Shown one piece after another: positions 41,225 through 42,670 of a DNA stretch of 64,000 bases. The stretch is from assembly GCA_902768435.1 (NCBI GenBank), contig CACXLJ010000007.1:124001-188000 (forward strand), written 5' to 3'. The number at the start of each line of letters is the position of its first letter. Within the stretch, counting starts at the first letter, position 1. The position numbers and the translations under genes were made by a program. The DNA comes from an uncultured Bacteroidales bacterium (lineage in GTDB: Bacteria; Bacteroidota; Bacteroidia; Bacteroidales; Muribaculaceae). The notes under the pieces were generated by a model. It saw only the letters and a program-made list of their open reading frames with translations, ran no database searches and had not been told where the DNA came from.

Positions 41225-41246
41225 CACTCCTATTATAACCAATGGC

Positions 41247-41281
41247 AAATCCCCGTCAGACGCATGTGCTGACGGGGATTT
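41247..41281. terminator. Bidirectional terminator between convergent genes
   Basis: A perfect 13-bp stem AAATCCCCGTCAG with CTGACGGGGATTT and a 9-nt loop, between susA (+) and the vWA/macro-like gene (-). Confidence 0.85.
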
Positions 41282-41351
41282 CCTTTTCAAACGAATCGGA
41301 CATTAAACCCATCTCGGTTTAACCCGAAACGACTGCCAAATTGTCTGAATC

Positions 41352-42443
41352 TCAGAAGTTCATGTTCAGGCCCAGTTCTGCCCAGAAGTCGGCAGGCAGT
41401 GCCACATTCTCGAGCCTGATGCAATCCTTGAACAGCGGTGCCACCTGCTGCACACGATAACCGGCGATGCCGCAACCAATGCGGGTCACCAAGAACCTCA
41501 GTTCAGGATGCTGAGCGGCAAACTGCGTGAATCGCTCCACTGCAGCCCTCATCGAATCCATACCCTCCATGGTTGGCAAGGCGTAGCTCTGTCCCTGCAG
41601 GCCCTCGCCCTGACCCCACACGGCGCCAAAGTTGTGCATAGCAGCTGCTGCTGCACCGCCGGCGTGGAATCCGTTCACATTCGACCCGAACACGAAAATC
41701 TCGTCCGGCTGGAGCGTGCTGATGTGATCGGGTGTCACGCGATCCATGTAGTAGTCATTGGCCATTTCACGCTTCTTATTCATCCATTCTTCCTTAGAGT
41801 GACTGCGACCCTTGCGATATTCATCATTCATTCTCCTGTAGTAGCGAAGCTTAGCCGAGCTATCGCGCGCCCATGAACTGTCCATACCCATCTCGTCATG
41901 ACTGAACTCGACAAAGTTGTCGATCGAGAGTTCTACGGTCACGCCCTTCACATTGTGCGCACTGCCCATGTAGGAGAACGACCAGCCCTCGCCTTTCAGT
42001 TTCTCGATGAGTTCCTTCACCCCTTTTGCATCCCACTCTTCCGAGGCGTTCTCGAGTCCATCGGTAAGCACGGTAACCACCGCCGAAGCATCGTCGTCGT
42101 CCTTGATGCGATTGTACAAAGCCGTAATCGACTTGCCCATGGCATCGTAGAGCGGCGTACCGCCCCATGGGTCATACTCCTTGAAATCCTCAACCTCGGC
42201 AATGGGCTTGCAGTCGATGAGCGTGCGCACCGATTCCCGTTGACCGTGAGTGTCGTCGAAGGTGACCAGCGTCAGGAAGTGCTCCTGCGTGTCGGCAAAC
42301 TGCTGCTGCGCACTGCGAATGCTGTTAATTGTCTCGGTCACTCCACCCATTGTTGCATGCACCAGATTCTGCATCGACCCACTTTCATCCACAATAATCA
42401 GGTTGTAGATTCTTGCTTTTTTGTTTTCGTTTTGCTCTTCCAT
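41352..42443 (-). CDS. vWA domain fused to A1S_2505-type (macro-like) domain
   Basis: 363 residues, no signal peptide. Residues about 10-190 form a vWA domain with an intact MIDAS: DESGSM (D19, S21, S23), the Thr of GGTPLYDA and the Asp of VLTDGLEN. After a charged linker, residues about 245-363 match the 'A1S_2505 family phage non-structural protein' type: IFVFGSNVNGFHAGGAAAAA, GLQGQSYALPTM, FLVTRIGCGIAGY and a closing NVALPADFW. This group is macro-domain-like and could bind ADP-ribose or a related nucleotide. The fusion of a metal-dependent adhesion domain with such a module is uncommon. The gene stands alone with its own promoter and a palindrome at the transcription start. Role unknown; stress or conflict functions are inferred from the domain types. 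Confidence 0.8.
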   Translation of the reverse strand: MEEQNENKKARIYNLIIVDESGSMQNLVHATMGGVTETINSIRSAQQQFADTQEHFLTLVTFDDTHGQRESVRTLIDCKPIAEVEDFKEYDPWGGTPLYDAMGKSITALYNRIKDDDDASAVVTVLTDGLENASEEWDAKGVKELIEKLKGEGWSFSYMGSAHNVKGVTVELSIDNFVEFSHDEMGMDSSWARDSSAKLRYYRRMNDEYRKGRSHSKEEWMNKKREMANDYYMDRVTPDHISTLQPDEIFVFGSNVNGFHAGGAAAAAMHNFGAVWGQGEGLQGQSYALPTMEGMDSMRAAVERFTQFAAQHPELRFLVTRIGCGIAGYRVQQVAPLFKDCIRLENVALPADFWAELGLNMNF

Positions 42444-42511: not shown

Positions 42512-42559
42512 GTGTAAGTTTTACACTGCAAAAATAGTGCCAATTTTTGAAACGGCAAA
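42512..42559 (-). promoter_or_regulatory. Promoter and start-site palindrome of vWA/macro-like gene
   Basis: Minus-strand TTTG (42556-42559), 19-bp spacer, TATTTTTG (42529-42536), a full consensus match. The palindrome GTGTAA-GTT-TTACAC (42512-42526) lies directly downstream over the expected start of transcription, a repressor-type position. Confidence 0.65.
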
Positions 42560-42670
42560 ATTTCTTGTGTAAAAATTACGCATTTAACATTTTTTAGTAG
42601 TTTATGACTAAGATGGCGATTATTTACTGAAATATTTCTTTATTTCGTTTTTTAATCCGTGATAATATAG

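Follow-up and report, generated by a model that had tools for sequence, protein, structure and literature searches.

A chromosomal vWA-A1S_2505 fusion protein of Muribaculaceae and its predicted place in an NrtR-controlled ADP-ribose regulon

Introduction

Host systems that may counter ADP-ribosylation have been predicted by Iyer et al. in 2022 (PMC9503650). They combine a Nudix or WYL repressor with an ADP-ribosylglycohydrolase (ARG), often a phosphatase, a chaperone-like vWA protein and sometimes a Macro or NADAR protein, and their predicted purpose is to reverse viral ADP-ribosylation. A coupled phosphatase is given there for about 55% of the ARG loci. Repressors of the NrtR family respond to ADP-ribose in the characterised cases, and family members of Bacteroidota can answer arabinose (PMC4666351). 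AraR and XylR are such sugar sensors (PMC4666351, PMC3878776). The Nudix signature is impaired in described NrtR and AraR proteins (PMC4666351). Another family of interest, A1S_2505, is labelled in NCBIfam only as 'phage non-structural protein'. Here we analyse a chromosomal gene in which a vWA domain is joined to a domain of this last family. It lies in a stretch of 64,000 nucleotides, hereafter the window, from an uncultured bacterium of the Muribaculaceae.

A vWA domain joined to a predicted macrodomain

The fusion gene (Table 1) lies between a glycoside hydrolase cluster and the gene of an NhaD-type antiporter, as named by eye among the window ORFs. By layout it is a single transcription unit: its left neighbour converges on it and the antiporter gene on its right diverges. 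A GC-rich hairpin with a T-run between the convergent genes (window 41226-41290) resembles by eye a shared terminator.

Table 1. Features of the fusion gene and its promoter region, in window coordinates
Feature	Position	Strand	Basis or remark
Fusion CDS, vWA + A1S_2505 macrodomain (predicted)	41352..42443	-	ATG start, 363 aa
A1S_2505 domain, predicted macrodomain fold, about residues 247-357	41373..41705	-	NF049995, predicted model, macrodomain matches
Loop 2, TRIGCGIAG, residues 320-328, aligned with TARG1 IGCGLDRL	41460..41486	-	PDB profile alignment
Loop 1 (residues 252-265), FGSN-x2-G-x-H-x-GGAA; includes N255 and H260; candidate loop for ADP-ribose	41649..41690	-	alignment; putative role
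Helical linker, about residues 184-235	41739..41894	-	DSSP of full-length model, lower confidence
vWA domain, about residues 8-205	41829..42422	-	phrog_7371 and fold-model matches
MIDAS aspartate D128	42060..42062	-	invariant, 18-row fusion alignment
MIDAS threonine T96	42156..42158	-	invariant, 18-row fusion alignment
MIDAS DxSxS, DESGS, residues 19-23 (D19, S21, S23)	42375..42389	-	sequence and 18-row alignment
Proximal operator GTGTAAGTTTTACAC, exact palindrome GTGTAA-N3-TTACAC	42512..42526	.	directly downstream of the -7 element
Promoter TTTG-N19-TATTTTTG (TTTG-N19-TAnnTTTG)	42529..42559	-	read between fusion and antiporter genes
Distal operator GTGTAAAAATTACGC	42567..42581	.	one mismatch, 55 bp from proximal operator

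The N-terminal half matches phrog_7371 of PHROGs over residues 12-207 (E 3.4e-36). The Pfam VWA_2 match is below threshold (17.6 bits against a gathering score of 27, E 0.0062), and the assignment to the vWA domains is based on phrog_7371, the MIDAS and the fold. In the model, this part matches vWA and integrin I domains, the best match having a Z of 18.8 and an rmsd of 2.7 over 172 residues. Throughout an 18-row alignment of fusions the full MIDAS is retained, save that one row is truncated before residue 24 and shows T96 and D128 only. An intact MIDAS had been claimed in the original prediction and is indeed complete, and the model confirms the vWA fold around it. Searched against solved structures, the sequence of the entire protein gave chance matches only.

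The C-terminal half had been described as related to a group known from phage genes, and its score lies above the NCBIfam cut-off for A1S_2505 (NF049995, A1S_2505_Nterm): residues 249-353 reach 139.8 bits against a cut-off of 45 (E 3.7e-41), with positions 1-109 of the 109 in the profile covered. This half also matches phrog_2072 of PHROGs (E 7.4e-34); no Pfam model matches it. The same joining of a MIDAS domain to an A1S_2505-type module recurs across genomes. A chance fusion, a frame error or an assembly accident is ruled out by this recurrence of the identical fusion in many genomes.

The C-terminal domain was modelled from a 62-row alignment of the window domain with its IMG/VR relatives (mean pLDDT 95.1, pTM 0.90). 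Macrodomains lead the Foldseek matches in the PDB, with 5e3b of S. coelicolor, which is SCO6735 (PMC9411070), and 2fg1 of B. thetaiotaomicron at their head; the best E-value is 0.0046 and none passes 0.001. After re-alignment of 999 candidates, ADP-ribose-bound alphavirus macrodomains, for example that of CHIKV, reach Z 11.9 (rmsd 2.9, 129 of 132 residues) and TARG1 reaches Z 11.4 (rmsd 2.7 over 118 residues). The rows shown of this re-alignment are macrodomains, with designed hydrolases and one Vtc4 crystal as the only other titles. In a profile search of the PDB, five TARG1/C6orf130 sequences rank first, at E 0.03. By Z-score, the macrodomains of alphaviruses and TARG1 are tied, and the sequence profile leans weakly to TARG1; the domain is perhaps of the ALC1-like class. 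The original prediction depended on a macro-like fold in this half, and the modelled fold came out as that of a macrodomain. We predict with high confidence that the A1S_2505 domain is a macrodomain, an assignment that is absent from Pfam, NCBIfam and PHROGs.

In the 62-row alignment, six residues of loop 1 (F, G, S, N, G, H) are invariant. By eye, N255 is at the place of an asparagine that is conserved in almost all active macrodomains (PMC9411070). The catalytic Lys84 and Asp125 of TARG1, whose roles are taken from PMC9411070, have no counterpart in the profile alignment, where the position opposite Lys84 is variable and that opposite Asp125 is Ala (numbering by eye). Some fusions lose macrodomain residues: Asp replaces N255 in two rows, Leu replaces C324 in two, and GGAA is lost in one. 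The protein could be a reader only: its macrodomain would bind clients that bear ADP-ribose, and its vWA domain would pass these on for cleavage by the co-regulated ADP-ribosylglycohydrolase. This falls a little short of an even chance in our judgement. The missing TARG1 dyad argues for it, as do the few fusions that lose macrodomain residues yet keep the MIDAS, the presence of a separate glycohydrolase in the predicted regulon, and the glycohydrolase genes that adjoin the fusion in three other genomes. However, SCO6735 is an active hydrolase though it is without both TARG1 residues (PMC9411070, PMC7050489), and the fusion has retained N255.

Promoter, operators and the nrtR operon of the same genome

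The original prediction spoke of a regulated-looking promoter, and the promoter core is bracketed by two palindromic operators, one on each side. By its consensus we take this promoter to be of the Bacteroidota -33/-7 type. The exact palindrome occurs in three places in the genome (2,752,041 bases, 44 contigs) against none in a reversed control. One place is the fusion promoter. The other two, 56 bp apart, precede an nrtR gene on contig C34, which is followed by an ADP-ribosylglycohydrolase gene. The C34 nrtR promoter has the same layout, with TTTG-N20-TAnnTTTG between its operators. Its product contains a Nudix domain (PF00293) and a winged helix (PF21906), both above the Pfam cut-offs. The NCBIfam equivalog for NrtR (NF050029) has a cut-off of 400 bits, and the NrtR proteins of two relatives score 144 and 141.

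When one mismatch is allowed, five places in the genome compare with 11 in the reversed control, so the genome-wide evidence is limited to the exact sites and to the positions of the sites. Four of the five are in the two regulon promoters and one is beside other genes. Since it was the window promoter that supplied the motif in the first place, the independent evidence consists of the two C34 sites and of the relatives. The gene had been called isolated. This is true of its position, as a single gene, but not of its regulation, in which it has rare operators in common with the nrtR operon elsewhere in the genome. We infer that NrtR binds both operators, and the nrtR-glycohydrolase operon and the fusion gene are predicted to form one regulon. 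Among the five places there is no sign of operators at the NAD-synthesis genes of this genome. A role of NrtR as repressor of NAD synthesis was rejected here, as the operator places give it no support.

Of 30 full-length nrtR genes, 18 encode a strictly intact Nudix signature, and the gene on C34 is one of the 18. NrtR repressors with an intact signature might hydrolyse ADP-ribose in addition to repressing transcription. Since the NrtR family includes sugar sensors in Bacteroidota, the ligand of these NrtR proteins could differ from ADP-ribose.

Distribution of the fusion and its linkage to nrtR

Among 61 genomes searched, full-length fusions were found in 16 of the 37 that belong to the genus, the one studied here included, and in one genome from another family (G039). 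Across the order, 7 of 393 genomes drawn contain one (again with our own), and these belong to six genera. A fusion on the Muribaculaceae contig L032 is 85% identical. In trees of both domains, the fusions fall into three clades each. One fusion was detected by an alignment-based scan on IMG/VR contig L147, a putative viral contig; a single-protein scan of viral sequences gave no fusion match. Phages commonly carry relatives of either domain (494 of 50,697 records). A phage-borne gene was rejected for the window, where the surroundings are by eye chromosomal housekeeping genes.

There are 24 distinct fusion loci, and nrtR is in the same stretch in 16 of them (L036, L038, L040-L045, L047, L048, L147, L232-L236). 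Seven others are without adjacent nrtR and have operators upstream of the fusion (the window, L032, L033, L034, L035, L037, L046). The remaining locus, L039, starts at a contig edge and its upstream sequence is missing. A check for other vWA fusions of this type and their neighbours had been suggested: such fusions recur, with the neighbours and operators just given. Outside the genus, nrtR adjoins the fusion in all six genomes whose neighbourhood was read. Within it, nrtR is present in 15 of the 16 fusion genomes versus 4 of the 21 others (Fisher p 6.7e-6, kinship uncorrected), and two of these last four matches cover about residues 1-198 only. The exception among the 16 is G010, in which no nrtR was found in a genome that is 97% complete; the fusion, DUF6717 and operators are present there on contig C26 (L035).

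Operator sites with at most one mismatch, counted mechanically over the surveyed loci, number 44 in the 33.4 kb that lie upstream of regulon-type genes versus 8 in 589 kb elsewhere. Of these eight, five are in front of genes that had been assigned a start too far upstream (L034, L043, L047), two are in front of the NADAR gene at the head of an nrtR operon (L211) and one is unexplained (L049). The nrtR-linked fusion loci L036, L232 and L233 show no site within one mismatch. The exact motif is found in 13 of the 61 genomes, and some of its places are not beside regulon genes.

Gene neighbourhoods in relatives

The domain survey omitted L001-L031, L051-L054, L057-L061 and L186-L210 (short loci) and five IMG/VR duplicates; it reported loci with at least two of seven domain kinds, and L211 and L212 always. 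An ADP-ribosylglycohydrolase gene (ADP_ribosyl_GH) adjoins the fusion in L048 and L233, in the order nrtR-fusion-glycohydrolase, and in L232, in the order nrtR-DUF6717-glycohydrolase-fusion. The order fusion-nrtR-A1S_2505 is seen in L235 and L236, and a split form, nrtR-vWA-A1S_2505, in G054 (L049). Where A1S_2505 occurs without vWA, it can be fused to an ADP-ribosylglycohydrolase (ADP_ribosyl_GH; L212, L215), to a microbial PARG (L213) or, on IMG/VR contig L097, to a DSP-type phosphatase. The nrtR loci also hold SIR2 (L214, L216, L221), NADAR (L211, L213) and KptA (L213), and A1S_2505 sits together with all three kinds. In G001, a second glycohydrolase gene has an exact operator in front of it (L192/L226). 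The IMG/VR contigs L065, L066, L069 and L070 combine glycohydrolase and Nudix genes with a vWA gene and a gene whose product has A1S_2505 at its C-terminus; L066 has in addition SIR2 and a weak sigma-like/HTH match. This genomic evidence, i.e. NrtR, ADP-ribosylglycohydrolase, PARG, NADAR, sirtuin, KptA and the common operators, points to ADP-ribose.

Several other arrangements were observed. L213 (G005:C47, 4013-7324) is operon-like, with NADAR, nrtR, A1S_2505-microbial PARG and Tpt1/KptA RNA 2'-phosphotransferase. DUF6717, a family of unassigned function, recurs beside the fusion (L033, L035, L040, L042-L045, L232), often between nrtR and the fusion and sometimes with an operator of its own; it may be part of ADP-ribose metabolism. 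In L219 (G052:C411, 149-1811), from another family, an exact operator and nrtR are followed by a gene that is nicotinamidase-like by eye, with no match in Pfam. An exonuclease-like N-terminus (by eye) is fused to A1S_2505 in L086 (17-1042, IMG/VR). In the IMG/VR contigs L062, L064, L065, L066, L069 and L070, the vWA gene diverges from the gene of a protein whose N-terminus is HTH- or sigma-like and whose C-terminus is A1S_2505; this protein is possibly a transcription switch with an ADP-ribose sensor. A further vWA gene, of the family seen in the fusion but standalone, is present in the genome studied here (L050, G000:C32:11776-12426), with no operators in the surrounding 20 kb and no ADP-ribose gene recognised. 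Neither nrtR nor operators accompany this gene or the A1S_2505 loci L222-L225.

The neighbours bear on three further readings. The fusion could belong to a vWA stress system of the TerY type, unrelated to ADP-ribose and with a degenerate macrodomain. A vWA domain with MIDAS is present as this would require, but no Ter, PP2C or kinase neighbours were recognised in the loci read, where ADP-ribose partners are found instead, and we consider such a system very improbable. A TerY-like system was rejected, as the supporting neighbours were not found.

Alternatively, the regulon could have a housekeeping role: it would keep NAD in balance and clear ADP-ribose by-products, such as O-acetyl-ADP-ribose from sirtuins or what RNA repair of the KptA type yields. 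The nrtR-SIR2 and nrtR-SIR2-A1S_2505 operons (L214, L216, L221) and KptA beside A1S-PARG (L213) agree with this, whereas small molecules need no vWA domain and the operators show no sign of reaching NAD synthesis in the genome studied. We entertain this role tentatively, as possible and on balance somewhat doubtful.

The third reading, for which we would claim a minority share of the probability, is defence: the regulon would undo ADP-ribosylation by phage enzymes or by the toxins of rivals, as in Iyer et al. 2022. The sirtuin or KptA genes of several nrtR loci speak against it, being an endogenous source of ADP-ribose products, and so does the position of the window locus amid chromosomal metabolic genes, with no mobile element recognised in the window ORFs. 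The parts list is nevertheless that of Iyer et al. (Nudix-type repressor, glycohydrolase, vWA 'chaperone', occasional Macro or NADAR; PMC9503650), the distribution is patchy, and the frequency of either domain in phages noted above is in keeping with defence. In the PADLOC defence library, the fusion, glycohydrolase, sirtuin, A1S and DUF6717 proteins have no match, a further point against; the Nudix part of nrtR matches one candidate model, PDC-S07. A known defence system was rejected, PADLOC giving no match for the fusion.

Proposed role

We propose that the fusion is probably an NrtR-controlled chromosomal adaptor that reads or erases ADP-ribosylation and is inducible by ADP-ribose together with the nrtR-glycohydrolase operon. 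In this proposal, NrtR on both operators flanking the promoter core would block the fusion gene until ADP-ribose or a related NAD product releases it, and the operon and the fusion gene would then be switched on together. The vWA domain would bind a protein client via Mg2+ at the MIDAS. The A1S_2505 macrodomain, perhaps ALC1-like, would bind ADP-ribose on the protein held by the vWA domain or on nucleic acid, or else a free ADP-ribose derivative. It would possibly also cleave the ADP-ribose off, by a mechanism that does without the Lys/Asp pair of TARG1. The original idea that metal-dependent binding is coupled to recognition of ADP-ribose or nucleotides is supported by the predicted vWA and macrodomain folds and by the ADP-ribose gene partners.

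A broader view, which we regard as unlikely, is that A1S_2505 is a separate, unrecognised class of ADP-ribose macrodomains common to phages and hosts, with an active site of its own (the invariant Asn and His of GSN-x2-G-x-H), and is central to an immunity regulon of Bacteroidota that NrtR controls, that ADP-ribose induces and in which the vWA-macro adaptor captures and delivers ADP-ribosylated clients to glycohydrolases.

In the open-licence literature, taken without supplements, we found no description of a vWA-A1S_2505 or similar vWA-macrodomain fusion, nor of A1S_2505 as a macrodomain. The present analysis gives a predicted fold and role to this phage-widespread family, which is tied to ADP-ribose through its fusions and the common operator. 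It also defines, by prediction, a compact regulon of gut bacteria consisting of repressor, operator, eraser and adaptor, and bears on how reversible ADP-ribosylation is used and sensed in bacteria.

Comparison with known systems

The C-terminal domain resembles the ALC1-like macrodomains TARG1, DarG and SCO6735 in its predicted fold and in the IGCG loop aligned with TARG1, and SCO6735 also in being without the TARG1 Lys/Asp dyad. It differs from all three in its distant sequence (PDB profile E 0.03), in its GSN-x2-G-x-H-x-GGAA loop and in being fused to a vWA domain. As in the SirTM/macrodomain operons, a sirtuin gene adjoins a macrodomain gene in L214; in contrast to those operons as presented in PMC4518038, the window locus is without a sirtuin, the regulator is NrtR and the macrodomain is of the A1S_2505 kind. 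The domain is a member of the A1S_2505 phage non-structural proteins (NF049995) above the cut-off, and is set apart from them by its host chromosomal location, its fusion to vWA and its assigned predicted fold.

There is also a close likeness to the ARG-centred systems of PMC9503650, in the Nudix-type (NrtR-like) repressor, the ADP-ribosylglycohydrolase, the vWA domain and the occasional Macro or NADAR genes. An ARG with a Nudix repressor and without a coupled ADP-ribosyltransferase fits the nrtR-ARG operon of the genome studied, where no transferase was recognised among the listed ORFs. Some relatives differ from it in that their loci contain SIR2 or KptA. No phosphatase gene was recognised in the operon. 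Compared with the systems described in PMC9503650, vWA and macrodomain are here in one protein, and the operator ties together unlinked genes, the fusion and the nrtR-ARG operon. The genomes are of Bacteroidota, whereas the text of that paper names actinobacteria, planctomycetes and proteobacteria. The vWA-macro system is best read as a variant of the systems for reversing ADP-ribosylation that Iyer et al. predicted in 2022 (PMC9503650).
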